This document shows positions 6,723 to 49,637 of a stretch of 64,000 nucleotides of DNA, one piece after another; position 1 is the stretch's first letter, and each line of letters starts with the position of its first letter. The notes below the pieces were generated by a model. It saw nothing but the letters and a program-made list of their open reading frames with translations. It had not been told where the DNA came from and searched no databases. Both the position numbers and the translations under genes were made by a program. Source of the DNA: Streptomyces sp. NBC_01353 (GTDB taxonomy: Bacteria; Actinomycetota; Actinomycetes; Streptomycetales; Streptomycetaceae); the NCBI RefSeq assembly GCF_036237275.1, contig NZ_CP108352.1, positions 6,200,001 through 6,264,000 of the forward strand. Reading direction: 5' to 3'.

Positions 6723-8156
6723 TCAACGAAGCGCGGAATCAAGGGCGTTGCACAGCGCGTCGAGTGCCCCGCCGTACAGCCGCTCGGGCGGCGTCGCATA
6801 CCCCACCACCAGCCCGTTCCGCCGCTCCGGGCCTTCCCGCCCGTCCTGGCGTACGTGATCCGCCGCGTCCGGATGCTGATACCCGCTCAGCCCCTCCACC
6901 GCGACTCCGTGCCGCTCCGCCGCCGCGAGCGCCGCGCGTTCCGTCCCCGGCGGAAGCTCCACCACCGCGTGCAGTCCGGCCGCGATCCCCGTCACGCGCA
7001 CCTCCGGCACCCGCTCGGCGAGGACCGCCACCAGTCGGTCGCGGCGCTCGCGATGGCGTCGACGCATCCGCCGGACATGCCGGTCGTACGCGCCCGAGCC
7101 GAGGAAGTCGGCGAGGGTGAGCTGCTCGGTGGCGGAGGAGTACGGCTCGCGCTCGCCCTTCGCCGCCACCACACCGTTCACCAGCCCGCCCGGCAGCGCC
7201 ATCCAGCCGATCCGGAGGGTGGGGGAGAGGCTCTTGCTGACGGACCCGATGAGGGCCACACGGTCGGGGTCGAGGCCCTGGAGGGCGCCGACGGGCCGGC
7301 GGTCGTAGCGGAACTCCCCGTCGTAGTCGTCCTCCAGGACGAACCCGCCGGTCGCCCGCGCCCAGTCCACGGCGGCCGAACGCCGCTCGGGATGCAGCGG
7401 CCCGCCCGTCGGGAACTGATGCGCGGGCGTGAGCAGGACGGCGCCCGACCCGCGCGGGATCTCGTCGACGCGCGCCCCGTCCTCGTCGACGGCCACCGGC
7501 ACGGTACGGACCCCGGCCTCGGCGAGCAGCCCCCGGTGGAAGGGGAGCCCGTACGCCTCCACCGCCCAGGGGCGGCCGACGACGACCCGGGCGAGGAGCC
7601 GCAGCGCATGGGCCGCGCCCGAGCAGACGACGATCCTGTCCGGCACGGTCCGCACCCCGCGCACCCGCGCCAGATACGCCGCGAGCTCCCGACGCAGCTC
7701 CACCCGGCCCCGCGGATCACCGATGCCGAAGGCGTCGTTCGGCGCGGCCGTCAGCGCCCGCCGCGCCGAGGCCAGCCAGGCCGTACGGGGGAAGGCGGCC
7801 GGGTCCGGCTTGCCCTGGACCAGGTCGTACGGGAGCGCTCGTACCGCGTCCCTCCGCACCCCCTCCGGCTCCGGCACCGCGACGCGCTCGGCGACCCGTG
7901 TCCCCGATCCCTGCCGCGAGGACAGCCATCCTTCGGCGACCAGCTCCGCGTACGCGTCGGCGACGGTGTTGCGGGCGACCCCCAGATCGGCGGCGAGCGA
8001 CCGGTAGGGCGGCAGGCGCGTCCCCGCGGCCAGCCGCCCGCTCCGTACCGCCTCGCGCAACGCCCGGATCAGCACGGCCCGTCGGCTGCCTGCCCCGGTC
8101 AGTTCCAGATGCAGATCGACCCCGAGAACCTCCGCGACCTCGCTCCCCTCGCTCAA
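6723..8156 (-). CDS. MocR/PdxR-like regulator (GntR helix-turn-helix plus aminotransferase domain)
   Basis: 477 aa. The best start is the TTG at 8156, which overlaps the TGA of the upstream gene (TTGA) and has GGAG 7 nt before it. Residues about 18-85 form a GntR winged helix (LPPYRSLAADLGVARNTVADAYAEL). The rest is a fold-type I aminotransferase domain: LLTPAHQFPTGG, the EDDYDGEFRY segment, and SVSKSLSPTLRIGW with the PLP-binding Lys. Members sense PLP or amines and control vitamin B6, GABA or taurine genes. No pdx or gab operon is adjacent, so the target is unclear. Confidence 0.92.
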   Translation of the reverse strand: MSEGSEVAEVLGVDLHLELTGAGSRRAVLIRALREAVRSGRLAAGTRLPPYRSLAADLGVARNTVADAYAELVAEGWLSSRQGSGTRVAERVAVPEPEGVRRDAVRALPYDLVQGKPDPAAFPRTAWLASARRALTAAPNDAFGIGDPRGRVELRRELAAYLARVRGVRTVPDRIVVCSGAAHALRLLARVVVGRPWAVEAYGLPFHRGLLAEAGVRTVPVAVDEDGARVDEIPRGSGAVLLTPAHQFPTGGPLHPERRSAAVDWARATGGFVLEDDYDGEFRYDRRPVGALQGLDPDRVALIGSVSKSLSPTLRIGWMALPGGLVNGVVAAKGEREPYSSATEQLTLADFLGSGAYDRHVRRMRRRHRERRDRLVAVLAERVPEVRVTGIAAGLHAVVELPPGTERAALAAAERHGVAVEGLSGYQHPDAADHVRQDGREGPERRNGLVVGYATPPERLYGGALDALCNALDSALR

Positions 8157-9547
8157 GCGCCCACTCCGGCGGCGTCCAGGACGGTGGCCATGTCGCTTTC
8201 GGGGAGCGCCGGGTTGGAGGCCGCGTCGAAGGCCACGTCGGGGATGTGGAGGGTCTCGCGGAGGCGGGGGAGCGGGAGGCGCGGGTCGCCGGTCGCCTCC
8301 TGGCGCACCTTGACGTCGGGGTCGCGGCTGAGCCGCTCGATCAGCTCGGGGGCGGCCGCCGGGTCGCGGACGGCCAACAGGCGGTAGATCCCGTCCGGAT
8401 GGTCCGCGTAGCGGGCGGCGAGGCCCTCGCGGGGGAAGCGGGGGTGGGTGGTGGCCATCCAGGCGGAGAAGGTCCCACCCAGCCGGCTGTAGACGTGCAT
8501 CAGGACCTCCACCGGAGCGTCGGGGTGGTGCAGGGCCAGATGGGTGTGGACGATGAAGTCCTCGTCCTCGGCCAGGAGTCGCAGGAGCTCGGGCGGTAGA
8601 CAGGGGCTCATGGCGGCGGCGCGCCGGAGCAGCGGGTGGGCCGAGGTGGCGGCACGGCGCAGGACGTCGGGATCGGCGAGCCCGTCCCGTACCCACTCCA
8701 CGTCCCCTCTGTCGAACTGCTCCACCGGGAAGTCGACGGCCATGCGCCGCGCTTCGGACAGTTCCGGCCGGAGGGAGACCGCGAGCCGCACGCCGTCGTC
8801 CGGATCGAGTGCGAGCCGGTCCACGAGGTCGGCCGGCAGGGACGGGTTCTCGGCGAGGGCGACCAGGTGCGTGCGCTCGGCGACGAACCGCTCGGCGTCG
8901 GCCCGCCCGAGGAGCCCGCGGCGCAGCGCCTCGGGCACGGACGCCGGGTCGCGAAGGAGTTCGGCGGTGAGACGCGCGTCGCGAGCGCACTCGCGCAGCG
9001 TCGCGTCGCGCCGCACCTCCGGGTCCGCGTCGGCCGACAGCGCCGCCCGCCGCTCCGGCGGCAGGGCGTCCCATGCGCGCACCGCGCGACGACGTGCCGC
9101 CGGATCGTGATGGGTGGCCAGCGAGGCCGCGAAGGAGGGGGTCAGATGCGGGGAGTCCAGCAGTGCCTCCCGTACGGAGGGTTCGTGGTCGTCGAGCAGC
9201 CGGGCGCACACGGCGTCGGGCAGCGGCGCGACCTTCGTACGAGGTTTGCGCCACTCGGGCCCGTACGCGAGCGCCGCCCGCACCTTGGCCGACGGGTCGT
9301 CCGCGAGCCGCGCCCGCTGCTCCGGCTCCGCCTTGGTGCTCATGGCGAAGTCGATCCGGGCATCAGGGTTGGGGTGGGCCAGAATCACCGCGACGGCCGA
9401 CTCGGTGAGCCCGGCCCGGTGGACGGCAAGACGGGGCGGGCCGTCACCCCCGTTCTCGTCGTGGGCGAGCAGACGCAGCAGCAGCCACGTGGGGAGCGCC
9501 GGGTTGGAGGCGACTCCGCTCAGAGCCGATGAGTACACGGCGACCAT
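8153..9547 (-). CDS. Leucine-rich repeat variant (LRV) protein
   Basis: 464 aa, ATG at 9547. The protein is a chain of helical units of about 24 residues such as NPALPTWLLLRLL, NPSLPADLVDRLALDPDDGVRLAV and DPDVLRRAATSAHPLLRRAA, the LRV pattern (NP.LP..LL..L..D....VR..VA). No signal peptide and no Cys cluster of the kind found in the nitrogen-fixation LRV protein. Such solenoids serve as protein-binding scaffolds; the partner is unknown. The gene is translationally coupled to the MocR regulator, so the two are probably co-expressed. Confidence 0.88.
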   Translation of the reverse strand: MVAVYSSALSGVASNPALPTWLLLRLLAHDENGGDGPPRLAVHRAGLTESAVAVILAHPNPDARIDFAMSTKAEPEQRARLADDPSAKVRAALAYGPEWRKPRTKVAPLPDAVCARLLDDHEPSVREALLDSPHLTPSFAASLATHHDPAARRRAVRAWDALPPERRAALSADADPEVRRDATLRECARDARLTAELLRDPASVPEALRRGLLGRADAERFVAERTHLVALAENPSLPADLVDRLALDPDDGVRLAVSLRPELSEARRMAVDFPVEQFDRGDVEWVRDGLADPDVLRRAATSAHPLLRRAAAMSPCLPPELLRLLAEDEDFIVHTHLALHHPDAPVEVLMHVYSRLGGTFSAWMATTHPRFPREGLAARYADHPDGIYRLLAVRDPAAAPELIERLSRDPDVKVRQEATGDPRLPLPRLRETLHIPDVAFDAASNPALPESDMATVLDAAGVGA

Positions 9548-9554
9548 GAATTCC

Positions 9555-9770
9555 CTACCCCAGTGTCGTTCCGGGCCCGTCGGTGGTGGACATGATCTCC
9601 CGTACGCCCGTCAGGAACCGCCGCACGGCATCCACCTCGTCCTCGTCGAACGTGTCCAGCAGCGCGACCGTCCGGTCGATCAGCGGCCCGAAGGACGGCA
9701 ACCCGATCCGTACGGCCGACGACCTGACGGCGCTGCCGGTGGGGTCACCGCCGGAGACGTACGACCGCAT
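9555..9770 (-). pseudogene. Remnant of a MarR-type regulator (C-terminal end only)
   Basis: 71 codons from an ATG at 9770. The last 45 residues (FGPLIDRTVALLDTFDEDEVDAV, RFLTGVREI) resemble the dimerisation helix at the C-terminus of Streptomyces MarR proteins, but no winged-helix DNA-binding part precedes it. The upstream DNA (9780-9835) is a string of near-repeats of GGCGTCGGCGTG. Most likely a truncated gene; a real small protein cannot be excluded. Confidence 0.35.
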
Positions 9771-9875
9771 CGCGGGCTTCCTGGCGTCGGCGTGACGGCG
9801 TCGGCGTGGCGACTTCGGCGTGCCGCGCATCAGCGGGCGTCATCAGCAAGGCGCCGGGCAACAACCCTGCCGACG

Positions 9876-10235
9876 TCAGCGAGACAGCGCGTCCCGCACC
9901 GCCTCCTCCGTCCGCCCCACGACGGCCGTGCCGTCCTCCGCCGTGATGATCGGCCGCTGGATGAGCTTGGGGTGCGTGGCGAGCGCCTCCACCCATCGGT
10001 CCCGGTTCGCCTCGTCGCGCGGCCAGTCCTTCAGGCCCAGCTCCTTGGCATCGGCCTCCCCGGTCCGCGTGATGTCCCACGGTTCGAGACCGAGCCGCTC
10101 CAGTACGGCGCGGATCTCGTCCGGGTTCGGCACGTCCTCCAGGTAGCGGCGCACCGTGTACTCGGCGCCCTCCGCGTCGAGCAGACTGATCGCGCTGCGG
10201 CACTTGGAACAGGCGGGATTGATCCAGATCTCCAT
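9876..10235 (-). CDS. ArsC/Spx-family (arsenate reductase-like) protein
   Basis: 119 aa, ATG at 10235. MEIWINPACSKCRSAISLL carries the thioredoxin-fold motif of the ArsC family, with Cys9 at the catalytic position and a second Cys at 12 (CSKC). Arg/Pro-rich segments further on (PKLIQRPIIT) match the arsenate reductase fold. Family members reduce arsenate with glutaredoxin or are redox regulators such as Spx/YffB. No ars operon is next to it, so a general thiol-redox role is as likely as arsenate resistance. Single-gene unit. Confidence 0.88.
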   Translation of the reverse strand: MEIWINPACSKCRSAISLLDAEGAEYTVRRYLEDVPNPDEIRAVLERLGLEPWDITRTGEADAKELGLKDWPRDEANRDRWVEALATHPKLIQRPIITAEDGTAVVGRTEEAVRDALSR

Positions 10236-10299
10236 GCGCCACACGGTACCCCCTCCGCCCCGCTCCACCACCCCCCAAACCCTGTCTGGCCAGGGGCGA

Positions 10300-10322
10300 T
10301 TGTCAGTGGGGGCACCTAAAAT
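10300..10322 (+). promoter_or_regulatory. RecA-NDp-type (PafBC-dependent) DNA-damage promoter
   Basis: TTGTCAGTG, eight bases, then TAAAAT. This fits the RecA-NDp consensus TTGTCRGTG-N8-TAnnnT described in mycobacteria for LexA-independent, PafBC-driven damage genes. It lies 61 bp before the ATG of the 91-aa protein, a suitable distance for a short leader. Confidence 0.7.
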
Positions 10323-10383
10323 AGGGGGTGAAGGTGAGGGTCCCGGGGAGGGCCCGCACCCAGTTTTCGCCAGGAGGTCGCCC

Positions 10384-10659
10384 ATGGCTCTCGCCGTGAT
10401 CCGGACACCGTCCCTCGAACCCTGGAAGCCCCTCCAGAAGAGGCCGCTCCCCGCGGGCCGCCCCCGCGAGTGGTACATCGCTCACAACCGCCGACTGAAG
10501 GCCATGCGCCTCGCGATCGTCCTGCTCGACGCGGGTGTCCACGACCCCGCGAACGCCGGCAACGCGAAGATACGCACCACGGCCGAACTGCTCGGCATCC
10601 ACCCGCCGTCCGACACCACCTGCCGCATGGTCCGCGCCCTGATCCGCTACGGCCGCTGA
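10384..10659 (+). CDS. Conserved-looking 91-aa protein, probably DNA-damage inducible
   Basis: 91 aa from the ATG at 10384, with a strong AGGAGG 8 nt upstream. Small, basic, soluble; the N-terminal third is Pro-rich and the rest helical (EWYIAHNRRLKAMRLAIVLLDAG, then TTAELLGIH and TTCRMVRALI, which could form a helix-turn-helix). I do not recognise a family. The upstream RecA-NDp-like promoter is the only functional hint and suggests expression after DNA damage. A hairpin terminator at 10684-10717 makes it monocistronic. Confidence 0.85.
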   Translation: MALAVIRTPSLEPWKPLQKRPLPAGRPREWYIAHNRRLKAMRLAIVLLDAGVHDPANAGNAKIRTTAELLGIHPPSDTTCRMVRALIRYGR

Positions 10660-10683
10660 TCCGACCGCACCACCCTGCCCGAA

Positions 10684-10717
10684 CGGGCCGCCACCCCGAC
10701 CCAGGGGCGGCGGCCCG
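10684..10717 (+). terminator. Hairpin terminator after the 91-aa gene
   Basis: CGGGCCGCC (10684-10692) pairs with GGCGGCCCG (10709-10717), with a further CCCC/GGGG pairing inside. There is no U-tract, as is common in Streptomyces. Confidence 0.6.
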
Positions 10718-10877
10718 CTCGCAACTCGACCGTTGCGCAGCCCACTTGGCGGCACGGTGCCGACCGGCCGACAGTTCTCCGTCGACCTCCCGCCGATATG
10801 ATCTCCGCGTAGACGTACGACCGTTCGGGCCCGGGAGGGACAGCCCCCGGGGCGACGGGGGACGAGGGGGCACACCG

Positions 10878-11189
10878 GTGGACAACGCCGTGGAGTTGGC
10901 GGACATCATCGCTCAGCTGCGCCACGACCTGAGCCGCGCCATGGCGGAAGGCGAAGGCACCGACCTGCGCTTCCAGGCGGAGCAGATCGAGCTGGAGCTG
11001 ACCGTCGGCGTGGAGCGGAGCCGGGAGCCCGGGGTGAAGGTCCGGTTCTGGGTGTTCGACGCCGGTGCCACCGCGCGGCAGGCGACCACCGACACCCAGC
11101 GGCTCACCCTGACCCTGAAGCCGGTACGCCCCGACGCACCGGACCGCTCGGTGCTGATCTCCGGTGACGAACTGCTCGGTGAGGACTGA
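10878..11189 (+). CDS. Trypsin-co-occurring domain (Trypco2) protein
   Basis: 103 aa from the GTG at 10878, with GAGGGGG 7-8 nt upstream. The start VDNAVELADIIAQLRHDLSR forms a helix, followed by strands (QIELELTVGV, VKVRFWVFDA, QRLTLTLKPV) as in the Trypco2 family that accompanies trypsin-like effector or sensor genes in actinobacterial conflict systems. It ends 7 bp before the trypsin-STAND gene, so the two form an operon. It is probably an adaptor or substrate of the protease; the exact role is not established. Confidence 0.85.
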   Translation: MDNAVELADIIAQLRHDLSRAMAEGEGTDLRFQAEQIELELTVGVERSREPGVKVRFWVFDAGATARQATTDTQRLTLTLKPVRPDAPDRSVLISGDELLGED

Positions 11190-11196
11190 TCGCACC

Positions 11197-14193
11197 ATGC
11201 CCGAAACCAGCAGGCGCGCCGCCGGCGGACTCGACCCGCACCGCATCGCCGAGGTCATCGTCACCACGCCGGCCGGCCGCCGGCGCGGCTCGGGCTACCG
11301 GGTCACCGACACGACGGTGCTCACCGCCGCGCATGTCGTGGCCGGCACCGCCGGGACACGGGTCCGCTTCGACGTGGACCGGCCCGGGCAGTGGGAGGCA
11401 CCGGCGGACGTGGCCTGGTACGACGCCGGCAGCGACGTGGCCGTCTTGACCTTCGTACCGCCGTCGACCGCGCCGTCCGTCGAGCCCGCGCCGTTCGGGC
11501 GCATCACCTCGGACCACCACGCCGTCGTCGCCGTCCACGCCGCGGGCTTCCCGCTGTGGAAGCAGCGCCGCCGACCGGACGGCGGACAGTTCCGGGAACT
11601 CCATCAGACCGACGGCACCGTCGCGGCCCTGTCGAACCTGAGGACGGGCACGCTGGAGATCACCGTCGCACCGGCCGGAGCCGACCCCAACCCCCAGGTG
11701 TCGCCGTGGTCGGGGATGTCGGGTGCGGCGGTCTGGGCCGGAGACCTCATCGTCGGCGTGGTCGCCGAGCACCACCGCTGGGAAGGATCGGGACGGCTGA
11801 CCGCCGCCCGGATCGACCACGCCCTGCTCCCGGCCGGCGCACCGCCCGCAGCCGAACCGGCCGCGCTGCTGGCCATCGACGACCCTCAGGCGCTGCCCGA
11901 AGCGGGTACGGAACCACCGGGCGCGCACGGACCGGACCACCAGGAGGAGCCGGCCGCGAGCAGCGCCCCGGCCCGGTCCAAGGTGATCGGGCTGCCTGTC
12001 GCCCACGGCATCGAGCTGTTCAAGAACCGCACCCGCGAACTCGACCTGATCGGCCGCCACCTCAGCGATCCCGCCGTCCGCATGGTGACGGTCACAGGAC
12101 GCCGGGGCATGGGCAAGAGCGCTCTCGCCGCCAAAGTCATGGACCTCCTCGACCGGGGCGAGTGGCCCGGCCACTCCGCGGCGCCGCTCCCTTCGGGACT
12201 CGTCAACCTCAGCACCCGTACGTCGGGCATCTCCCTGGAGCGCCTCTACTTCGACTGCGCCCAGCTGCTCGGCGGCGAGCACCGGACCCGTCTGCACGAG
12301 GTCTGGGCCGCCCAGCTGCCCGTCCAGGACAAGCTCGACGAGCTGTTCGCCGCGATGGGCGACCGGCTCTTCGTCATCCTGATGGACAACTTCGAGGACC
12401 TCCTCCACGACGACGGCCGGATCCGGGACGAGGAGGTGGCGCTCTTCCTCGACTGCCTCTTCCGGGCCCGGTCCACCCCGCGGCTCCTGGTGACGACTCA
12501 GGTACCGGTACGTCTCGCCCCCGAGCTGCGCCGTTTCGTCGCCCAGGTCGATCTCTCCGAGGGGCTGCACCCCTCCCAGTCCGTCGCGCTGCTGCGGGAG
12601 CTGGACCGCGACGGCAGCCTCGGCATCGCGCACCTGTCCGACGAGGAGCTGCTTCAGGCTGCCGTGCGTGTGCACGGTGTCCCGCGCGCCCTGGAGCTCC
12701 TCGTCGGCGCCATGGCCGACGACGACATGATGCTGCCCACCCTGCAGGACGTCCTGGCCGACTACGCCCAGCGCCGTGACGTGGTCGAGGGCCTCGTCCA
12801 GGACCGCCACCGCCAGCTCGACGCCGGGAGCCGTACGGTCGTCGGCGTCCTCGCGGCGCTGCGCACCCCCGTACCGCAGCCGGCGGTCCAGACGATCGTC
12901 GGCGGTCTCGATCCCACGCTCGACGTCACGCGCGTCCTGGCCCACCTGGTACGGATCCACCTGGTGTCGGTGGACCGCAGGCACCGCACCTTCGCCCTGC
13001 ACCCGATGGACGCCGACCTGGCGTACGGCGAGCTGCCCGCGGACGGCCCGACCGGCCGCACGGCCGTCGAGCGGCGGATCGCCGACCGGTACGCGAACAT
13101 CGCCCCGCCCCGTGCGGCCTGGCAGACCGCGGACGACGTCCAGCCGCTGCGCCGGCAGTTCGAGCACCTGGTGCGCGCCGGTGACGTCGACGCCGCCGCG
13201 ATGGTCCTCGGAGAGATGGGGGAGTGGCTGGTCTGGCAGGGCTCGGTGCTCGGGGTGATCTCGATGCACCTGGCCATCGACGGCCGTCTCACCGACGACC
13301 GGGCCCGCCTCGCCCACCTCGGGTCCTTCGGACACGCCCGCCTGACGGCGGGGCCGATGGAGCACGCGGTCGAGCTGTTCACCGAGGCTGTCGACCTGGC
13401 GGAGCGTCTGGGCGATCACCGCGCCCTTCAGAACGCCGTCTTCGGTCTCGGCGACGCGTACCGGCAGCTCGCCCGTCTCGACGCGGCGGTGGGCCCGCTG
13501 GCCAGGGCAGGTGACCTGGCCCACGAGAACGGCGACCTGGAAGGCGAGGTGCACGCGATCCTGTCCCTGAGCCTCGCGTACAGCTCCCTCGGGGACGGGG
13601 AGACGGCGCTGGCGAGTGCCGACCGGTTGAGTGCCCTCGGTCAGACGTCCGGGGACCTGCTCACGCAGGCCCGGGCGGGGAACGCCCGCACGATCGCGCT
13701 GCTAACGCTCAGCCGCTGGGAGGAGACGATCACCGCCGGTGACTTGGCCATCCGCGCGTACCGGGCGTCGGGCATCCCGGAGGGGATCAACAACGCCCTG
13801 AACGCCCAAGGCATCGCCCTGCTGGCGCTGGACCGGGTCGGCGAGGCGGTGACCATGCTGAAGGCGGCGCTCGACGAGGCACTGCTGACGGAGAACCCCC
13901 GCGCCGAGGGCGTCTGCCTCTGCAACCTGGCCTGGGCCTACTGGTGCGACGGACAGTACGCGCAGGCGGCCGAGACGGCCGAGCGGGCGGCGGTCTCGCT
14001 GGGGATCGCGGGTGCGGGGGAAGCGGCGGCGGCCCAGGCGCTCGCGGAGGCCGCCCACGCCCGCGCCGTACCCCGCCCCCGGGCCGCCGCTGAGGCCCTG
14101 GTCCGCGCCGCCGACGCACTGGGAGACAACGTCGAGGTGGTCGGCCCCTCTTGGCTTGTTGCGCAGGCCGAGCTGATGCGCGCGGAGGGCTGA
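11197..14193 (+). CDS. Trypsin-STAND NTPase-TPR protein (conflict/signalling system)
   Basis: 998 aa from the ATG at 11197. Residues 10-215 form a trypsin-like serine protease with an intact triad: His46 in TAAHVV, Asp80 in SDVAV, Ser175 in SGMSGAAV. A Pro/Ala-rich linker (220-265) leads to a STAND/NACHT-like P-loop NTPase with Walker A GRRGMGKS (301-308) and Walker B LFVILMDNFED (391-401). From about 650 on it is TPR repeats, ending at an Ala-rich C-terminus. No signal peptide: cytosolic. The architecture predicts a sensor (TPR) that assembles via STAND and unleashes proteolysis, as in antiphage or programmed-death systems; this is inference. Coupled to the Trypco2 gene. Confidence 0.93.
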   Translation: MPETSRRAAGGLDPHRIAEVIVTTPAGRRRGSGYRVTDTTVLTAAHVVAGTAGTRVRFDVDRPGQWEAPADVAWYDAGSDVAVLTFVPPSTAPSVEPAPFGRITSDHHAVVAVHAAGFPLWKQRRRPDGGQFRELHQTDGTVAALSNLRTGTLEITVAPAGADPNPQVSPWSGMSGAAVWAGDLIVGVVAEHHRWEGSGRLTAARIDHALLPAGAPPAAEPAALLAIDDPQALPEAGTEPPGAHGPDHQEEPAASSAPARSKVIGLPVAHGIELFKNRTRELDLIGRHLSDPAVRMVTVTGRRGMGKSALAAKVMDLLDRGEWPGHSAAPLPSGLVNLSTRTSGISLERLYFDCAQLLGGEHRTRLHEVWAAQLPVQDKLDELFAAMGDRLFVILMDNFEDLLHDDGRIRDEEVALFLDCLFRARSTPRLLVTTQVPVRLAPELRRFVAQVDLSEGLHPSQSVALLRELDRDGSLGIAHLSDEELLQAAVRVHGVPRALELLVGAMADDDMMLPTLQDVLADYAQRRDVVEGLVQDRHRQLDAGSRTVVGVLAALRTPVPQPAVQTIVGGLDPTLDVTRVLAHLVRIHLVSVDRRHRTFALHPMDADLAYGELPADGPTGRTAVERRIADRYANIAPPRAAWQTADDVQPLRRQFEHLVRAGDVDAAAMVLGEMGEWLVWQGSVLGVISMHLAIDGRLTDDRARLAHLGSFGHARLTAGPMEHAVELFTEAVDLAERLGDHRALQNAVFGLGDAYRQLARLDAAVGPLARAGDLAHENGDLEGEVHAILSLSLAYSSLGDGETALASADRLSALGQTSGDLLTQARAGNARTIALLTLSRWEETITAGDLAIRAYRASGIPEGINNALNAQGIALLALDRVGEAVTMLKAALDEALLTENPRAEGVCLCNLAWAYWCDGQYAQAAETAERAAVSLGIAGAGEAAAAQALAEAAHARAVPRPRAAAEALVRAADALGDNVEVVGPSWLVAQAELMRAEG

Positions 14194-26171: not shown

Positions 26172-27068
26172 TCAGGCGGCGGCGCGGATCGCCTCGTCGA
26201 TCGTGGGGAACGCGAACCGGAACCCGGACTCCGACAACCGGCCCGGCAGCACCCGCTGACTGCCCAGCACATCCTGGGCGAAGTCCCCGAGTACGAGCCT
26301 GAGGGCAGGAGCGGGGACCGCGCAGACCGTGGGACGGTGCAGCACACGGCCCATCGCCGCCGTCACCTCGCGGTTGGTGACCGGTTCGGGGGCCGTCAGA
26401 TTCACCGGGCCCGAGAGGGAGTCGGTCTCGATCAGATGCCGCAGGGCGGCCACCTCGTCGTGCAGCGAGATGAAGCTCCAGTACTGGCGGCCGTCGCCCA
26501 TCCGGCCACCCACACCGGCACGGAAGACCGGGAAGAGCCGGCCCCACGCCCCGCCCTCGCGGGCCACCACCAGACCCGTGCGGGCGTACGCGACCCGGAT
26601 ACCGGCCTCTTCGGCGGGGGCCGCCGCGGCCTCCCACTCCACGCACACCGAGGGCAGGAAACCCTCGCCCGCGGGTGCGCTCTCGTCCACGGCGCGCGAG
26701 CCGGTGTCGCCGTAGTAGCCCAGCGCCGTGCCGCACACCAGAACCTTCGGCGGATCGGCGAGCGAGGCGAGGGCCTGCGCGATCGCCGTCGTACCGAGCA
26801 CGCGGCTGTCGCGGATCTCCTTCTTGTACGCCTCGCTCCAGCGGCGCTCACCCACGCCGGCGCCCGCCAGATGCACGACCGCGTCGACGCCTACGAGCCC
26901 CGCCGCGTCCACGTACAGCCGCGCCGGGTCCCACTCGACCTCGTCCGCGGTCCGGGCGGGCCGCCGCACGAGGCGGGACACCTGATGGCCGTCGGCGCGC
27001 AGCGAACGCACCAGGGCGGAGCCGATGAGTCCGGAGGCGCCGGTGACCGCGATTCGGGAGCGTTGCAT
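26172..27068 (-). CDS. TIGR01777-type NAD(P)-dependent epimerase (YfcH/SDR39U1-like)
   Basis: 298 aa from the ATG at 27068; the longer frame upstream lies across the divergent GNAT gene and is rejected. SRIAVTGASGLIGSALVRSL is the Rossmann GxxGxxG motif of extended SDR proteins. VDAVVHLAGAGVGERRWSEAYKKEIRDSRV and LGYYGD are hallmarks of the TIGR01777 subgroup, as is the C-terminal VLGSQRVLPGRL. The family's substrate is unknown. Divergent from a GNAT gene with 46 bp between starts. Confidence 0.95.
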   Translation of the reverse strand: MQRSRIAVTGASGLIGSALVRSLRADGHQVSRLVRRPARTADEVEWDPARLYVDAAGLVGVDAVVHLAGAGVGERRWSEAYKKEIRDSRVLGTTAIAQALASLADPPKVLVCGTALGYYGDTGSRAVDESAPAGEGFLPSVCVEWEAAAAPAEEAGIRVAYARTGLVVAREGGAWGRLFPVFRAGVGGRMGDGRQYWSFISLHDEVAALRHLIETDSLSGPVNLTAPEPVTNREVTAAMGRVLHRPTVCAVPAPALRLVLGDFAQDVLGSQRVLPGRLSESGFRFAFPTIDEAIRAAA

Positions 27069-41641: not shown

Positions 41642-41945
41642 GGTGGTGAAATCTCGCTTCCATTGAGTTCTGTGGCGGTCGAGGGATGGGCCGACCGTGC
41701 CCGCCGCATCGTATTTCGGCCCGGGGAACGCCGAGAACGAGCCTACGCTCGCTCTTCGTCTTCGCTCACGGCGACGGTGATTCACTCATCCGTGGTGTCT
41801 CTTTCACGTTTACCCCTCAGTGTCGGAGAGCTCGGTCACACTCGCCTCATTCGCGCAAGGGCAGCAGCCGCTCCTTTGCATCATCCGCATCATCTCCACA
41901 GGTCCTCCCTAAGCGGTCGGGCCTGTCGAGGGGGGACACCACCAG
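41642..41945. other. Divergent promoter region between pepA and the polysaccharide operon
   Basis: 304 bp with AT-richer patches (41780-41820 and 41850-41900). No gene and no convincing operator seen. Both promoters must lie here. Confidence 0.45.
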
Positions 41946-43991
41946 ATGGACTCTGCCGGATCCCGTATGCCCAGAACAGCCAGGACGGCATCCCTGCTGG
42001 CCGCCGCGCTCCTGGCCACCGTCCTCCCGTCCGCGGGGGCCGGCGCGGCCGAAGCGGTTCCGCGGATCGACCTCACCGTCCTGGTCGTCGACGACGGCGG
42101 CAGCGCCGTGGAGGCGATCACCTCCGAACTGCGCTCCACAGGCGTCCCGTACCGCCGGGTCGATCTGGCCGATTCCGGCCGCCCGGTCATCAACGCCGGA
42201 TTCCTCAGCGACACGGTCTCCGGGCGCCCCCGGGCCAAGTACCAGGGCGTCGTCCTGCCCCACGAGTCCGCCTTCGGCCCCGACTCCGCCGAGCAGGCGG
42301 CCCTCACCGCGTACGAGAAGACCTTCGGCATCCCGCAGGTCGACGCGTACACCTGGGCCCACCCCGGCGTCGGTCTCGACTACACCAGCGAAGGGGGTTT
42401 GTCCGGTCCTCTCGACGGGGCCGCCGCCTCCGTCACCGCGGCCGGCCGGGCCGGGCCCTTCCGCCACCTGGACGGGCCGCTGACCTTCGAGGACAACGAC
42501 CCGGCGATCTCCGAGAGCTACGGTTACGCCGGCCGTCCGCGCGAGGGCTTCACCAGCTACCTCGACATCCCCGTCGACGGCGGCGGCCGGGCCAGCCTGA
42601 TCGGCGAGTACGCCCACGACGGACGCCGCGAACTGGTCGTCACCTTCGCCTACAACCAGTACCAGCGGCAGTTCCGGGCGCTCGCCCGCGGCATCGTCGA
42701 ATGGCTCACCCAGGGCGTCCACCTCGGCCAGAGCCGCAGCTACTTCTCCGTCCACGTCGACGACGTCCTCGCCCCCGACGCCCGCTGGGACACGGCCCGC
42801 AACTGCACCCCCGGAGACTTCGACTGCGTGGGCGGCGACGGGGACGGCGTGAACCCCGTCCGGATGACCGCCGAGGACGCCCGGTACGCGGCCACCTGGC
42901 AGAAGTCCTCCGGCTTCACCCTCGACATGGTCTACAACGGCGGCCAGGGCGAGCAGTGGAAGACCGAGCACGGAGGCGCCGACCCGCTCGCCACCCAGCT
43001 GATCGCCGACCGCGCCCAGTACCGCTGGGTGAACCACACCTACACCCACCCCTTCCTCGGCTGCGTCCAGGACAACGCCACCGTCCCCTGGCAGTGCGCC
43101 AAGAACGCCACCGGCGCCACCCTGTGGACGAACCGCAGCGCGATCTCCGGACAGATCCGCGACAACCACAACTGGGCCGTCGCCAAGGGCATCTCCGTCG
43201 ACCGCGCCGAACTCGTCACCGGCGAGCACTCCGGTCTGAAGACCCTCCCGCAACAGAGCGCCGACAACCCGAACCTGGCCGGCGCGCTCTCCGACAACGG
43301 CGTGAAGTGGATCGCGAGCGACAACTCCCGCGAGCCCCGACAGCGCGCCGTCGGCGCCGCGAAGACCGTCCCGCGCCACCCCATGAACGTCTACTACAAC
43401 GTGGGAACGGCCGCCGAGATGGCCGACGAGTACAACTGGATCTACACCTCGCGTGCCGACGGCGGCAGCGGGATCTGCGAGGCCAACCCGGCCTCCACCT
43501 GCCTGCCCGCCCCGCTCGACACCGCCACCGGGTACGCCTCCCACATCGTCCCGCAGGAGGCACGCACGGCCCTCTCCCACATCGTGGCGAACGACCCGCG
43601 CCCGCACTACGTCCACCAGTCCAACCTCGCCGAGGAGCGGATCCTCTACCCCGTCCTCGACCGGGTGCTCGCCGACTACCGGGCCCTCTTCGCCGACAAC
43701 ACCCCGCTGGTGAACCCCCGTCAGCGTGACGTCGGCACCGAGCTGAACCGCCGCGCCTCCTGGGAGCAGGCGCTCGCGGCCGGCCAGGTCACCGCGTACC
43801 GCATCGGTACCACCGTCACCGTCAAGGCGCCCGCCGGCGTGACCGCGCCGATCACCGTCCCCGAGGGCACGCGCAAGCAACTCCTCCTCGGCACCGCGGT
43901 GTTCGGGACGGCCTACGCCGGAACGCGCTCGGCCTGGACGGCCCCGGAGCCCCTGCAGAGCGCGACCACGCTCCGGCTCCCGACCGTCTGA
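41946..43991 (+). CDS. Secreted polysaccharide deacetylase-like protein (Agd3/PelA-deacetylase-like)
   Basis: 681 aa from the ATG at 41946, with GAGGGGGG about 10 nt upstream. A signal peptide covers residues 1-35 (basic start, LLAAALLATVL, cleavage near GAGAAEA). The N-terminal 250 residues are an accessory domain. The deacetylase core has HVDD (270-273) and HTYTH (364-368), matching the metal-binding motifs of NodB-type deacetylases. The large size and motif spacing recall Agd3 (CE18), which deacetylates fungal galactosaminogalactan; that link is inference. First of four genes with PelF-like and GH135-like proteins, so it probably deacetylates the polymer outside the cell. Confidence 0.87.
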   Translation: MDSAGSRMPRTARTASLLAAALLATVLPSAGAGAAEAVPRIDLTVLVVDDGGSAVEAITSELRSTGVPYRRVDLADSGRPVINAGFLSDTVSGRPRAKYQGVVLPHESAFGPDSAEQAALTAYEKTFGIPQVDAYTWAHPGVGLDYTSEGGLSGPLDGAAASVTAAGRAGPFRHLDGPLTFEDNDPAISESYGYAGRPREGFTSYLDIPVDGGGRASLIGEYAHDGRRELVVTFAYNQYQRQFRALARGIVEWLTQGVHLGQSRSYFSVHVDDVLAPDARWDTARNCTPGDFDCVGGDGDGVNPVRMTAEDARYAATWQKSSGFTLDMVYNGGQGEQWKTEHGGADPLATQLIADRAQYRWVNHTYTHPFLGCVQDNATVPWQCAKNATGATLWTNRSAISGQIRDNHNWAVAKGISVDRAELVTGEHSGLKTLPQQSADNPNLAGALSDNGVKWIASDNSREPRQRAVGAAKTVPRHPMNVYYNVGTAAEMADEYNWIYTSRADGGSGICEANPASTCLPAPLDTATGYASHIVPQEARTALSHIVANDPRPHYVHQSNLAEERILYPVLDRVLADYRALFADNTPLVNPRQRDVGTELNRRASWEQALAAGQVTAYRIGTTVTVKAPAGVTAPITVPEGTRKQLLLGTAVFGTAYAGTRSAWTAPEPLQSATTLRLPTV

Positions 43992-44048
43992 GACCCGCCG
44001 ACCGCTTCGCGCACTGACCACTGACCGTACGTTCTGGGGGAAACGCAC

Positions 44049-45572
44049 ATGCCGAGCAGTGGCCGTCACGTCACCATGCTCACCGAGGGCACCTATCCGC
44101 ATGTCCACGGGGGAGTCAGCACCTGGTGCGACCAGCTCGTCCGGGGGATGCCCGAGGTCGACTTCGAGGTCCTCGCCCTCACCGGCAGCGGCCGCGAACC
44201 GGTCACCTGGGAGCTGCCGTCCAACGTCCGACGGCACACCGCCTTCCCGCTCTGGGGCCCCACCCCGGAGCGGGGGCGGGCCCCGCGCGGGCGGGCGCGC
44301 CGCCGCTCGGTCGACATCTACGAGCGCTTCCTGCTCTCGATACTCGACCCCGGCGCCGGCTGTGACTTCGGCGAGGGCCTCTACGCCCTGGCCGAACTCG
44401 CCCGGCGCGGAGGGCTCACCGCGGCCCTGCGCTCCGAGAGCATGCTCCGCTCCCTGATGTGGATCTGGACCATGCCGCATCTACCGACGGCCGCGGCCAG
44501 GCCCACCGTCCACGACGCGCTGACCGCCACCGACCTGCTGGAGCACGCGCTGCGGCCGCTCGCCGCCCGGATATCCGGCAGCAGCGTCGCGCACGCCGTC
44601 TCCAGCGGCCTCGCGACGCTGCCGGCGCTCGCCGCCCAGCACTTCGAAGGAGTGCCCTTCCTGCTCACCGAACACGGCATCTATCTGCGCGAGCGCTACC
44701 TCGGCTACCGCACCGAGGCCCAACGCTGGCCCGTCAAGGCCCTGATGCTCGGCTTCTACCGCGAGCTCAACACCCTCGGCTACCGCAAGGCCGACCTGAT
44801 CACCCCCTGCAACCAGTACAACCGGCGCTGGGAGGAGCGCGGCGGCGCACCCGCCGCCCGCATCCGGACCGTCTACAACGGCGTCGACCCGCACGCCTTC
44901 CCCTACGCGGGACCCGAGCCGGAGGTCCCCACCCTCAGCTGGTGCGGCCGGATCGACCCCATCAAGGACCTGGAGACGCTGATCCGGGCGTACGCGATCT
45001 CCCGCGCCGAACTCCCGGAGCTGAGGCTGAGGTTGTTCGGCCCGGTACCGGCCGGGAACGAGGACTACCGGACCGGCCTGGAGAAGCTGGCGGCCGAACT
45101 GGGCGTCGCCGACGGCATCACCTTCGAGGGCAGGGTCTCCGACGTGGCCGGCGCCTACGCGGCGGGGAGCGTGGTGGCGCTGTCCTCGATCAGCGAAGGC
45201 TTCCCCTTCTCCCTGATCGAAGCCATGTCCTGCGGCCGGGCCACGGTGTCCACAGATGTGGGCGGGGTACGGGAGGCCGTCGGCGACACGGGACTCGTCG
45301 TCCCGCCCCGCGAACCCGCCGTGCTGGCCGCCGCCATGACGGAGCTGCTGCACGACGGGGAGCGGCGCGCCGAACTGGGCCGCCGGGCCCGGCAGCGGGT
45401 CGTCGACCGCTTCACCCTGCACCGCTCGGTGGAAGGCTTCCGCCAGATCTACCGCGAACTCGCCGGGCAGCCCGTCACACCCCCGGTCGATCTCGGCGAC
45501 GGAACGGACTGGACCGTGCGCCTCACCGACCCCTGGCGCCAGGAACTCGTCGGCGGAGGCTCCCTTTCGTGA
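44049..45572 (+). CDS. pelF: PelF-like GT4 glycosyltransferase
   Basis: 507 aa from the ATG at 44049. MLTEGTYPHVHGGVSTWCDQLVRGMP is the characteristic start of PelF (DUF3492), and the GT-B C-terminal domain has RTVYNGVDP, LSWCGRIDPIKDLETLI and the nucleotide-sugar E-x7-E motif in SEGFPFSLIEAMSCG. Cytosolic, no signal. In Pseudomonas PelF polymerises UDP-GalNAc-type precursors for the Pel polysaccharide. Here it lies 57 bp after the deacetylase gene and overlaps the membrane protein gene, so it is the likely polymerase of the locus. Confidence 0.93.
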   Translation: MPSSGRHVTMLTEGTYPHVHGGVSTWCDQLVRGMPEVDFEVLALTGSGREPVTWELPSNVRRHTAFPLWGPTPERGRAPRGRARRRSVDIYERFLLSILDPGAGCDFGEGLYALAELARRGGLTAALRSESMLRSLMWIWTMPHLPTAAARPTVHDALTATDLLEHALRPLAARISGSSVAHAVSSGLATLPALAAQHFEGVPFLLTEHGIYLRERYLGYRTEAQRWPVKALMLGFYRELNTLGYRKADLITPCNQYNRRWEERGGAPAARIRTVYNGVDPHAFPYAGPEPEVPTLSWCGRIDPIKDLETLIRAYAISRAELPELRLRLFGPVPAGNEDYRTGLEKLAAELGVADGITFEGRVSDVAGAYAAGSVVALSSISEGFPFSLIEAMSCGRATVSTDVGGVREAVGDTGLVVPPREPAVLAAAMTELLHDGERRAELGRRARQRVVDRFTLHRSVEGFRQIYRELAGQPVTPPVDLGDGTDWTVRLTDPWRQELVGGGSLS

Positions 45573-46996
45573 GCGGCTCGCTGTGGCTCAAGAACGGCAC
45601 GATGCAGGACACCCTGCCGGTGATCCCACGCCCTCGCAGGCCGGGCGCCGAGCAGGGGCTCCTCGTGCGGGATCCGCTCGATCAGGATCCGCTCGACCAG
45701 GGTGCCCTCGCCGTCGATCCGCTCGACGAACTCGCCGACCGGCTCGACGCGTTGGCCGCCGGCGCCGTGCACCCCGACGAGATAGCCGCGATCCTCGAAT
45801 CCGACGGCCTGACCGACGACCACATCCGCCTCACCTACGGGCGCGCCGACTCCTTCGCGCTCGCCGAGGACCTCTACGCGCGCGTGGAGCGGCGCCATCC
45901 CCAGCCGGAGGCCCCGCCCACCGGGCCCTGGCACAGCGGGCTCGTCGGCTGCCTGCTGCGCGGACTCGTCTTCGCCCTGCCCGGCCTCGCGTACGTCCTC
46001 GCGGCGCCGCTCCTGGCCGGGCCGGGCAAGGGCCCGCTGCTCGCGTCGGCCGTGGCCGGATGGGTGTGGAACCAGGCCCTGGCCCACCGCGCGTACTCCT
46101 GGCTCGGCCTCGGCGAACGCCGGGCGGCCGCCCGCGCCCTGCTCCTCGGCGCCCCGGCGGGCGCGCTCGTCGGCTCGGCCGTCGCCCTCGCCGCCTCCGG
46201 GCCCGGGGCGTGGCGCGTCGTCATGTTCGCCGCCGGACAGTCCCTGTACCTCGGCGCCGCGACCGTCCTGCTCGTCCTCGGCCGCGAACGCGCCCTGCTC
46301 TGCGCCCTGCTGCCGCTCGCCGGAGCGGTGCCCGCGTTCTGGTACGACCTCCCCGACGCCCTCCGCGCCGGGCTGCTCGTCCTCTCCCTGGCGACCACGG
46401 TCACCTTCGCGGCGATCGTGCTGCGCCCAGGACCGAGGCCCCGCTCCGGCCCGCCGCTCGTCGCCTCCCTCCCGTACGGCCTCTTCGGCCTCGGCACCGG
46501 CCTGCTGGTGCTGTACGCGGGGGCCGGCGACGCCCTGGTGACGGGCGCCGCGCCCGTGCTCGCGCTCACCCTGTCGATGGGGCCCGCCGAGTGGCTGCTG
46601 CACCGCTTCCGAAGCGAGACCCTCACCGGACTGCGCACCCTCACCAGCGCCCGCGCGTTCCGGCGGGCGGCCGCGGGGACGCTGGCGCACTGCCTCGGCG
46701 CGTATCTCGCCGTCCTGCTCGCCCTGGCCTCCGTCGGCACCCTGCTGTGGCCGGGAGCCCCGGCGCTCGACGGGATCCGGCTCCTCGGGCTGCTGCTGGT
46801 CGGGATCGTGCTCTGGCTCGCCCTGCTCCTCCAGGCCTTCGGCGCGGTCCGCAGCGCGGCCGCGGTGTGCACGCTCGCCGCGGTGGCGCAGACCCTCACC
46901 CCGACGGCCGGCCCCGCCGCGGCCGGCGTAGCGGCCACCGTCCTGGCCGTCCTGGCCGGCGCCCTGCTCATACGCCCGACAGCCCACCGCGCCTAG
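45569..46996 (+). CDS. Polytopic membrane protein of the polysaccharide operon (PelG-like role)
   Basis: 475 aa from the GTG at 45569, overlapping the PelF stop (GTGA). A soluble N-terminus of about 115 residues (DPLDQDPLDQGALAVDPLDELADRL repeat-like acidic stretch, then LESDGLTDDHIRLTYG) precedes about 11-12 membrane helices. Gene order and topology match PelG, the transporter partner of PelF, but sequence similarity cannot be judged by eye. Most likely it exports the polymer. Confidence 0.88.
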   Translation: MSGSLWLKNGTMQDTLPVIPRPRRPGAEQGLLVRDPLDQDPLDQGALAVDPLDELADRLDALAAGAVHPDEIAAILESDGLTDDHIRLTYGRADSFALAEDLYARVERRHPQPEAPPTGPWHSGLVGCLLRGLVFALPGLAYVLAAPLLAGPGKGPLLASAVAGWVWNQALAHRAYSWLGLGERRAAARALLLGAPAGALVGSAVALAASGPGAWRVVMFAAGQSLYLGAATVLLVLGRERALLCALLPLAGAVPAFWYDLPDALRAGLLVLSLATTVTFAAIVLRPGPRPRSGPPLVASLPYGLFGLGTGLLVLYAGAGDALVTGAAPVLALTLSMGPAEWLLHRFRSETLTGLRTLTSARAFRRAAAGTLAHCLGAYLAVLLALASVGTLLWPGAPALDGIRLLGLLLVGIVLWLALLLQAFGAVRSAAAVCTLAAVAQTLTPTAGPAAAGVAATVLAVLAGALLIRPTAHRA

Positions 46997-47010
46997 GACG
47001 ACCGACGACC

Positions 47011-47628
47011 GTGAACCCTTCTCTCCTCGTGCCCTTCTACGAGCATCCGGCGGACCGGCCCGAAGCCTGGGACGCCGTGATCGAGGCCGCGCCGTCGCTG
47101 TACGGCGTCGTCCTCAACCCCGCGAACGGCGCGGGGCGGACCGCCGATCCCGCCTTCGCCGTCGTCGCCGAACGGCTCCGCGCCGCCGGGGCGCGGGTGC
47201 TCGGCTATGTCGACACCGCGTACGGCCGCCGACCGCACGGCGAGGTCGTCGCCGACCTGCTCCGCCACCGCGACTGGTACGGCGCCGACGGGGCGTTCCT
47301 CGACCAGGTGCCGACCGCGCCCGAGGCCCTCGAGCACTTCCGGCGCATCGGCGTCGCCGCCCGCGCCGCCGGGGCCCGGACACTGGTTCTCAACCACGGC
47401 GCCCACCCCGACCCCGGCTACGCCGCGCTCGCCGATCTGCTGGTCACCTTCGAGGGCCCCTGGGACTCCTACCGCGCCCTCGACCTCCCGGTCGCCGACC
47501 ACTACTGCCATCTGGTCTACGCGGCCCCCCGCCACGCCCTGCCGACCACCCGCGTCCACTGCACGGTCCCGGGTACGGGAGCCCACCCGTGGGGCACGCT
47601 CCCGCACGCCCTGGAGCCGGCCGGATGA
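47011..47628 (+). CDS. Spherulin-4/GH135-like hydrolase
   Basis: 205 aa from the GTG at 47011. LLVPFYEHPADRPEAWDAVI, GVVLNPANGAGRTADPAF, ARVLGYVDTAYGRRPHGEVVADL, WYGADGAFLDQVP and LVTFEGPWDSY follow the spherulation-specific family 4 pattern, whose fungal member Sph3 (GH135) cleaves galactosaminogalactan. Two acidic residues, Asp in YVDT and Asp in FLDQV, are the likely catalytic pair. No signal peptide is evident, so it may act inside or be exported in an unknown way. Last gene of the operon. Confidence 0.88.
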   Translation: MNPSLLVPFYEHPADRPEAWDAVIEAAPSLYGVVLNPANGAGRTADPAFAVVAERLRAAGARVLGYVDTAYGRRPHGEVVADLLRHRDWYGADGAFLDQVPTAPEALEHFRRIGVAARAAGARTLVLNHGAHPDPGYAALADLLVTFEGPWDSYRALDLPVADHYCHLVYAAPRHALPTTRVHCTVPGTGAHPWGTLPHALEPAG

Positions 47629-47643
47629 CCCATGGGGCGACGG

Positions 47644-48816
47644 TCAGCCGCGGGTGACGGAGTAGCAGGTGGCCCGGCCCTCGCCGTTGTCCGTCCACTC
47701 GCGCCCGGTCGACCAGGTGTACCAGGACCGGTCGCCGGCCGTGTCCGCGCAGGCCCGCTCGGCCCTGGACATCGCCGACTCGGTGCCGGGCCAGCCGCCC
47801 GCGAGCTTGTGCTGTCCCAGGATCTTGCCGTCGTAGGAGCCGGTGCAGGGCACCCGGGCCACCAACCGGTTCTGGCGCAGACCGGTGTTGAAGTCCATGC
47901 AGTCCCCGGCCTTCGCGTCGTACGTGGGGATCACCACCGTGCCGGCGTCCAGGGTGCGCTCGGTGGGCGTCGCCGCGGCCGTCGGCTTCGAGGCGCCGAA
48001 TCCGGCCAGGGTGAGCTCGGCGTGGAGTGCGGTGACGTCCGCGAGGGCGCTGTCCTTCTCCTTGCTGAGCAGGGCGGACAGATCGGCCCGGGCACGCGTG
48101 ACCCGGCCGTCCGCGTCGACGTCGACGGTCACCGGGATCTGGGCGGTCTTCACGGTGTCGTTCAGCGGGACGGGGACGAACTCCGTCCGCAGGTCGTACG
48201 GGAAGAGATTCATGGCCGCCTTCAGCGGGAACGAGGCGGTGTACGAACGCCCTGCCGTGCCCGTCCGGGCCGTCGCCTCCGCGGTCCCGAGCGCCTCCAG
48301 GAGCGTGCCGCCGACCGCGGCCTCGGAGCCGCGCAGGTGGCTGATCGAGTCGACGCCCCAGAGCGGCTTGATGTCCCCCGAGTACCGCAGCCAGTAGCCG
48401 GCCGAGGCGGCACGGTAGTTGATGGTCTGGGTGTCCACCGTGTATCGGCTGGAGGTGTCGCCCGTGGTCCGCCCCGGGAGGGATCCGAGGATCGTCGCGC
48501 GGGCGTCCTCCGGGAACTGCCGGGGAACGCGCCAGGCGCTCGCCGCCTCGCCCCGGCTGCCGGTGAAGTCCACGCGTCCCGTGAGGGTCTGGACGGCCTT
48601 GCCGTGCCGCGAGGTGAAGGTGACGCTCTGGCGGAGCTCGGCGCTGCCGGCCTTCTGGGTGTGGCGCAGCGCGAGGAAGACCTGCCGGTCGAGCGGCTCG
48701 GAGAACACGGGATGGGGGGCCGGCTTCGCGGTCCCTCCGTCGTCGCCGCCGCAGGCGGTGAGCGAAAGGGAGGCGGCGGCGAGCGCGGCAGCGGTACGAG
48801 CAAGGCGTCTGATCAC
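47644..48816 (-). CDS. Lipoprotein with septum-formation-like C-terminal domain
   Basis: 390 aa from the GTG at 48816. Signal peptide with lipobox LTAC at about 19-22 (ASLSLTACGGD), so membrane-anchored. The middle (DRQVFLALRHTQKAGSAEL, then VDFTG, LRYSGDIKPLWG) resembles LppX/LprG-like beta-rich actinobacterial lipoproteins. The C-terminal 100 residues with paired Cys (AGDCMDF, VPCTGSYDGKI, ERACADTAGDRSWYTW, GRATCYSV) look like the septum-formation (Septum_form) domain. Function unknown. Convergent with the GH135-like gene, 15 bp apart. Confidence 0.9.
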   Translation of the reverse strand: MIRRLARTAAALAAASLSLTACGGDDGGTAKPAPHPVFSEPLDRQVFLALRHTQKAGSAELRQSVTFTSRHGKAVQTLTGRVDFTGSRGEAASAWRVPRQFPEDARATILGSLPGRTTGDTSSRYTVDTQTINYRAASAGYWLRYSGDIKPLWGVDSISHLRGSEAAVGGTLLEALGTAEATARTGTAGRSYTASFPLKAAMNLFPYDLRTEFVPVPLNDTVKTAQIPVTVDVDADGRVTRARADLSALLSKEKDSALADVTALHAELTLAGFGASKPTAAATPTERTLDAGTVVIPTYDAKAGDCMDFNTGLRQNRLVARVPCTGSYDGKILGQHKLAGGWPGTESAMSRAERACADTAGDRSWYTWSTGREWTDNGEGRATCYSVTRG

Positions 48817-48872
48817 GCCTTCATGACCGGGCGGACCTGCGGAAGGTTGTCCTCCGGCAGGTCACGGAACGA

Positions 48873-49637
48873 TCAACCCAGCGTCAGCGCGACGAGCGCC
48901 ACCGTCCCCGCCGTCTCCTCCACCGCTCCGAACACATCGCCGGTCACCCCGCCGAACCTCCGTACGCACCGCCGCAGCAGCAGCGTCGCCGCGCCGAGCC
49001 CCGCCGCTGCCGCCAGGACGTGACGGATCGCGTCGTACGGGGAGAAGAGCGCGCCCGCGCCCGCGCACAGGACGAGCACGCCCCCGGTGACCAGCGCGGC
49101 CGAGCGCACCGGGACGGTGGCGGCGACCATCGCGCCCAGGCCCTCCGGACGGGCCGCCGGGACGCCGTGGCGGGAGGCGTGGGTGAGGGCGAGGCGGGCG
49201 ACGGTCGCGGCGAGGGCGGCGGCGACCGTGCCGTACGCCCAGCTCTCCTCGTACAGCCGGTACAGCGCGGCGACCTGGGCGAGCAGGACGAAGAGCAGCA
49301 CGATGACACCGAACGGGCCGATGTCCGACTGCTTCATGATCCGCAGCGCGTCCTCCGCCGGCTTGGCGCTGCCGAGCCCGTCCGCCGTGTCCGCGAGGCC
49401 GTCCAGGTGCAGGCCCCGGGTCATCAGCGCCGGTACGGCGGCGGTGACGACGGCCGCGAGCAGCGGGCCGGAGCCGAACAGCAGGAACAGGCCGCCGAGT
49501 GCCGCCGAGAAGAGGCCCACGACGAGGCCCGCGAGCGGGGCCCACAACATGCCGGCGCGCGCCGCGTCCCTGTCCCAGCGGGTGATGCGGGCGGGGAGCA
49601 CGGTGAGGGTGCCGAAGGCGAAACGCAGGCCGTCCAT
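48873..49637 (-). CDS. cobS: Adenosylcobinamide-GDP ribazoletransferase
   Basis: 254 aa from the ATG at 49637. Signature segments: GLRFAFGTLTVLP, the strongly conserved LHLDGLADTADGLGS, and MKQSDIGPFGVIVL. Six to seven membrane helices, as in CobS. It joins adenosylcobinamide-GDP and alpha-ribazole, the final step of cobalamin assembly. CobT and CobU functions are encoded 3-5 kb away on the same strand, separated by unrelated membrane genes. Confidence 0.97.
   Translation of the reverse strand: MDGLRFAFGTLTVLPARITRWDRDAARAGMLWAPLAGLVVGLFSAALGGLFLLFGSGPLLAAVVTAAVPALMTRGLHLDGLADTADGLGSAKPAEDALRIMKQSDIGPFGVIVLLFVLLAQVAALYRLYEESWAYGTVAAALAATVARLALTHASRHGVPAARPEGLGAMVAATVPVRSAALVTGGVLVLCAGAGALFSPYDAIRHVLAAAAGLGAATLLLRRCVRRFGGVTGDVFGAVEETAGTVALVALTLG

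Follow-up and report, generated by a model that had tools for sequence, protein, structure and literature searches.

A 64,000-nucleotide (nt) stretch of the 8.57-Mb genome of Streptomyces sp. NBC_01353 (G000:C1:6200001-6264000, here called the window) contains four genes that lie head to tail on the plus strand, flanked on one side by a divergent leucyl aminopeptidase gene and on the other by a gene on the minus strand for a protein of 390 amino acids (aa). The first gene (41946..43991) encodes a secreted 681-aa Agd3-like polysaccharide de-N-acetylase with a predicted CE18 fold, and the second (44049..45572) a 507-aa glycosyltransferase of the PelF family (GT4), a putative N-acetylgalactosamine (GalNAc) polymerase. 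The third (45569..46996) encodes a 475-aa membrane protein, a predicted 12-helix MOP-fold exporter whose GTG start codon overlaps the pelF stop, and the fourth (47011..47628), also with a GTG start, a 205-aa spherulin-4/GH135-like protein lacking a signal peptide. An earlier note on this DNA had placed these four genes in one operon. All four are indeed present on one strand, and their tight spacing (57 nt, then a 4-nt overlap, then 14 nt) fits a single operon. The intergenic stretch between the aminopeptidase gene and the operon (41786..41945) is the presumed promoter region, and none of the four genes contains a TTA codon (bldA control). We interpret the operon as one that probably serves the synthesis, export, and deacetylation of a GalNAc-rich exopolysaccharide of the galactosaminogalactan/Pel type.

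Families and folds of the deacetylase, polymerase and exporter

The deacetylase carries the motifs HVDD (residues 270-273) and HTYTH (364-368). Its predicted structure strongly matches the Agd3 fold over 540 residues, including the Asp-Asp and HxxxH ligands, and shows the three-domain Agd3 architecture of an N-terminal module, a CE barrel, and a beta C-terminal domain. The likeness to Agd3 (CE18) proposed in the earlier note is thus borne out by the model. Across an alignment of 20 rows (L040 left out), the metal-ligand motifs CM1 (Asp-Asp, D272-D273) and CM2 (HxxxH, H364/H368) are kept in 18, the window's included. R477 and H557 are invariant in this alignment and are candidates for the CM3 Arg and the His of the CM4 Met-x-His. 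The motifs are lost in two homologues (L048:7423-9504 and L049:6450-8615; 49% identical), which encode HVDG or QVDG in place of HVDD and NGTYDR in place of NHTYTH, and whose fetched stretches hold no match to PelF, the exporter, or the spherulin protein. By their sequences, both are likely pseudo-deacetylases. At another locus (L160), the deacetylase (6937-9200) and glycosyltransferase (4016-6912) genes are broken across several frames, through either decay or assembly errors. Internal stops that appeared in some relatives' deacetylases were dismissed as probably the terminal stop within an over-long alignment, because in the four genomes aligned from longer stretches (G049, G007, G105, and G047) the protein ends there.

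The second protein scores 164.8 bits against the NCBIfam PelF equivalog NF038011 (cut-off 100) and matches Pfam DUF3492 (E 9.8e-58) as well as GT4 domains, in agreement with the PelF-like polymerase proposed from the sequence. The third protein, described earlier as a membrane protein of 11-12 helices, has 12 long helices in its model, with the fold of the MOP superfamily (MATE/Wzx/MurJ). Its sequence has no Pfam, NCBIfam, or PDB match. An alignment against three PelG proteins gave an hhalign probability of 0.1 (with thin profiles), and the PelG family (PF16933) matches neither the exporter nor any other protein of its own genome. A PelG identity for this protein was therefore rejected for lack of sequence-level support from families, hhalign, and the genome search; the fold class is nonetheless shared. 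Judged from its model, it belongs among the MOP-fold exporters, and its sequence shows no detectable relation to that of PelG. Near the N-terminus (about residues 50-105; window 45716-45883), it also has a conserved helical domain that has no Pfam match and includes a motif near AVHPDEIAAxLESDG and YGR.

The spherulin-4 protein

The fourth protein exceeds the cut-off of Pfam Spherulin4 (E 7.7e-27) and matches the Sph3 structure 5c5g, with E 1.6e-9 as a single sequence and 5.1e-26 as a family profile. The catalytic Asp and Glu of Sph3 align with D98 and E148; both residues are present in all 17 rows of the family alignment, the window's included (L045, whose gene runs off the fetched stretch, was left out). 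We take the Sph3 nucleophile to be Asp166, which fits the 56-residue Asp-Glu spacing in the PDB chain, unlike the printed Asp196. The printed residue and Glu222 are given as nucleophile and acid/base in PMC12054363. The position of the second acidic residue, a Glu in Sph3, is occupied by Gln99 in the window's protein. This change is general in a set of 77 distinct Streptomyces proteins, drawn from 80 entries (63 named loci, 16 others, and the window): the catalytic Asp is followed by Gln in 73 and by Arg in two, with two more uncaught by the pattern, and Glu was found in none. Because Gln or Arg replaces the second acidic residue, we call the protein GH135-like. L156, a relative from the same class outside the genus, has Cys at this position.

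The spherulin proteins also begin almost directly with the barrel. In 75 of the 77, only 1-9 residues (15 in two) separate the start from the first barrel strand. Start codons can be misjudged, so we also examined the in-frame stretch ahead of them, over as many as 70 codons; of 75 proteins (L131, whose N-terminal frame differs, and L041, whose start was picked too far in, were left out), none reaches a 12-residue mean hydropathy of 1.6, the highest value being 1.58. Among the positive controls, the same measure gives 1.71-2.93 for the N-termini of the deacetylases, and two secreted spherulin proteins score 2.79 and 3.37. This upstream reading replaces an earlier measure (15 residues within the first 44, with gene starts chosen near the window's), which was dropped when the deacetylase scored 1.91 and spherulin proteins up to 2.11, making signal peptides indistinguishable from barrel strands. 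Since no signal peptide is visible, the spherulin-4 protein is probably cytosolic. Of the Sph3/GH135-like hydrolase put forward earlier, the family likeness stands, on the Spherulin4 and 5c5g matches, but an extracellular location is unlikely given the missing signal peptide and the Gln at the second acidic position.

Across a phylum sample of 296 genomes, seven encode spherulin-4 proteins, ten in total with the window's. The eight from Streptomyces have Gln (four) or Arg (four) and no visible signal, and the two from a non-Streptomyces actinobacterial family retain Asp-Glu and begin with a stretch that resembles a signal peptide. A link of secretion with Asp-Glu, and of the lack of a signal with Gln or Arg, is suggestive and involves two lineages only. 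One locus of another actinobacterium (L159 of G160, 5351-12175) has consecutive genes for PelF, a true PelG, and a relative of the deacetylase; on the opposite strand, it encodes a secreted spherulin-4 protein with a signal peptide and Asp-Glu kept.

Conservation of the locus and a second locus type

A deacetylase match (E 1e-20) was found in 58 of 121 genomes of the genus, the window's own included; among these, one (G069) has fragments only, and two (G105 and G047) have only diverged copies (49-50%). In a sample of the phylum, in which only two candidates were scored per genome, 13 of 396 genomes match, six of them of the genus, again with the window's own. Gene content and order were tallied over named loci, which are the best 80 of the 525 matches listed and so are skewed toward the window's locus type. 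All 80 are from Streptomyces, and some apparently share a genome with a locus outside the named set (e.g., L031/L063, L034/L113, L035/L103, and L036/L121). Sixty-six of them, with at least 4.5 kb downstream of the deacetylase, were counted for gene content: PelF is present in 63, the membrane protein in 63, and the spherulin protein in 61. Gene order between lpd/aminopeptidase and cobS is fixed. Of the 65 loci that reach cobS, 52 read lpd-aminopeptidase-deacetylase-PelF-exporter-spherulin-GH114-cobS. The remaining 13 comprise seven without GH114, as in the window, three without a spherulin match, two with the deacetylase only, and one with deacetylase and spherulin. At L036, L121, and L125, the deacetylase is the only gene of the set present from aminopeptidase to cobS, and polymerase, exporter, and spherulin look to have been lost (L036 and L121 are apparently one contig).

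The four-gene set is thus conserved beyond chance, but the unit described earlier is incomplete, as most relatives hold GH114 as a fifth gene. In the window, the GH114 slot (47628-48873) is taken by the minus-strand gene for the 390-aa protein (47644-48816), which has a lipoprotein-like N-terminus and is matched in only five of the 66 loci. The single GH114 of the window's own genome lies 5.7 Mb off and is only distantly similar. Given GH114 in 52 of 65 loci, the window's four genes are best understood as a smaller version of a conserved locus of five genes.

A second, paralogous locus type was recognized in seven of the first 20 longer stretches fetched (L041-L045, L047, and L050). Here, deacetylase, PelF, and exporter are followed by a sugar-nucleotide cassette and then by the spherulin gene. 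The cassette (e.g., L041:2658-5324) encodes a LegB-like 4,6-dehydratase (450 bits in L041, under the cut-off of 475), a nucleotidyltransferase, and a second short-chain dehydrogenase/reductase (SDR). GH114 is present in five of the seven, and the other two stretches end shortly past the spherulin gene; the GH114 copy of L041 has a lipoprotein-like signal. No such cassette was found in the window, where the only LegB-like match (28.6%) is far off, at 26673-27059. A single branch (92/81) separates the two Streptomyces locus types in a tree built from 24 deacetylases, seven rows of which belong to neither type. This tree includes four outgroup rows with long branches and six open forks, and we claim no direction of change from it. 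A dehydratase and a reductase without an aminotransferase would fit a nucleoside diphosphate (NDP)-activated 6-deoxy-N-acetylhexosamine (6-deoxy-HexNAc), which suggests that the second locus type makes a different, perhaps 6-deoxy, amino-sugar polymer.

Proposed pathway and comparison with known systems

From the calculated gene order, families, folds, conservation, and missing signal peptide, we infer a substrate, a product, and a role for each step. A housekeeping GalE-type epimerase (three galE genes in the genome score over the cut-off) would supply uridine diphosphate (UDP)-GalNAc, which the PelF-family enzyme would polymerize in the cytosol. The MOP-fold protein would export the chain, and its N-terminal domain, presumed cytoplasmic, might be where PelF docks, taking the role of PelD/PelE. 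Outside, the secreted Agd3-like enzyme would remove part of the acetyl groups to yield a cationic, adhesive polymer. The cytosolic spherulin-4 protein may trim, release, or bind the still acetylated chain before export, and GH114, encoded adjacently in most relatives seen, would act outside on the deacetylated chain. If cytosolic, the spherulin protein would encounter the chain only in its acetylated form, in line with the published preference of Sph3 for fully acetylated polymer (PMC12054363); Ega3, in turn, prefers deacetylated polymer (PMC7229062). Both preferences fit the compartments proposed here for spherulin and GH114.

Several results weigh against this reading. The deacetylase scores 22.5 bits against Pfam Agd3_CE (PF25115), below the gathering cut-off of 27.6, and we therefore name it Agd3-like rather than a member of that family. 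A PDB sequence search with the 20-row deacetylase profile matched no chain, and no residue-level alignment to Agd3 was obtained, so that the CM3 Arg and CM4 His are not mapped by alignment. By Foldseek alone, the exporter reaches only E 2.6e-3, with TM-scores of about 0.4. PelF membership by itself would not prove a GalNAc substrate, no GH114 match occurs in the window, and our search found no published sugar analysis for any of these loci. With Gln or Arg in place of the second acidic residue, the spherulin protein may moreover be inactive.

This last point leads to a real possibility, though not the one we would bet on: that the operon otherwise works as proposed, with the spherulin protein either binding the chain, as a pseudo-hydrolase, or recycling leaked polymer, as a housekeeping enzyme of the cytosol. 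The absence of Glu from the Streptomyces set and of a signal peptide from the 75 proteins checked speaks for it, as do the two secreted proteins of another actinobacterial family that keep Asp-Glu; the retention of both the Sph3 nucleophile and the acid/base residue speaks against it. We consider it unlikely that the product is some other deacetylated amino-sugar polymer (e.g., of N-acetylglucosamine, 6-deoxy-HexNAc, or a mixed repeat) and that the operon has only enzyme folds in common with Pel and galactosaminogalactan. The operon does lack an epimerase gene, and the LegB-like/nucleotidyltransferase/SDR cassette in seven of 20 stretches hints at other NDP-HexNAc sugars for this operon class. 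That cassette was not found in the window, however, and the PelF equivalog score stands beside Sph3- and Agd3-like partners whose characterized relatives act on polymers of GalNAc and galactosamine (GalN). Least probable, and in our view very unlikely, is that this is a genuine Gram-positive Pel operon of the pelDEADAFG type whose PelG, PelD, and PelE have diverged. PelF and a separate deacetylase are both present, and a MOP fold has been reported for PelG too (PMC13254593); the exporter sequence and the kind of deacetylase nonetheless differ, as compared below.

Beyond the GalNAc-rich product, which we hold to be probable, a more detailed model can be drawn, though we are doubtful that it holds as a whole. 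In this model, an Sph3-like hydrolase with an altered, Asp-Gln site now works inside the cell, where it acts on or holds the acetylated chain before export, and GH114, where present, acts outside on the deacetylated one. The MOP exporter would dock the polymerase by its N-terminal domain and replace PelG/PelD/PelE, and the paralogous loci would make a second, chemically different cationic polymer via a LegB-type 6-deoxy-HexNAc.

Should the product prove to be a GalNAc/GalN polymer, a cationic matrix polymer like those with which fungi and Pseudomonas adhere would occur in many streptomycetes, by the deacetylase count given above. It would add to the MatAB polymer and to the CslA glycan of the Streptomyces matrix. 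Polymers of this type influence how hyphae clump in fermenters and how they attach to surfaces. The locus would also be a simple bacterial test case for the published proposal of a bacterial origin of the fungal cluster, and a likely cytosolic hydrolase makes the question of why synthesis needs a hydrolase directly testable.

The central idea of the earlier note, a bacterial Agd3/PelF-type operon, is already in print. In the text of Bamford et al. 2020 (PMC7229062) available to us, agd3 homologues are reported in 45 bacterial species, in operons that also encode a cytoplasmic glycosyltransferase and a multi-span membrane protein, mostly together with GH114 and, in some Actinobacteria, with spherulin-4. 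The discussion there supports bacteria-to-fungi transfer, and we take the phylogeny of the fungal cluster from that paper's tree. The set of functions is the same as in the window, whereas GH114, highly consistent in those operons, is absent here. That portion of the paper is silent on the lack of a signal peptide, on the Gln substitution, on the exporter fold, and on a sugar-nucleotide cassette. Our limited literature search, which covered papers in part, found no earlier mention of the missing signal peptide, the Gln, or the LegB cassette. The present analysis adds the reduced five-gene locus, the spherulin protein with no signal peptide and a Gln/Arg site, and the paralogous type with its cassette.

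The Aspergillus galactosaminogalactan cluster (agd3, sph3, ega3, gtb3, and uge3) likewise groups Agd3-like and Sph3-like genes, and the window's relatives add an Ega3-like GH114. In place of the membrane synthase Gtb3, however, the window has PelF and a separate MOP exporter; it lacks an epimerase gene, and its Sph-like protein lacks a secretion signal. Gram-positive Pel (pelDEADAFG), as described in PMC7112168 and PMC13254593, has in common a PelF polymerase, a MOP-type exporter, and a separate extracellular deacetylase. It differs in that the window's exporter has no detectable sequence relation to PelG and its deacetylase is of the Agd3 kind, not PelADA (CE26). PelD was not found in the window's own genome by a search whose controls also matched nowhere, and PelE was not searched for. 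Separate hydrolase and deacetylase genes, which the earlier note treated as distinctive, are already a feature of the Bacillus cereus pel system, with its PelADA and PelAH. In Pseudomonas Pel, by contrast, PelA is one periplasmic protein (CE21 in PMC12022489, GH166 in PMC12054363), its deacetylase family differs from the window's, and there are outer-membrane parts that are not expected in Streptomyces. What the two share is the logic of polymerase, export, deacetylation, and hydrolysis.
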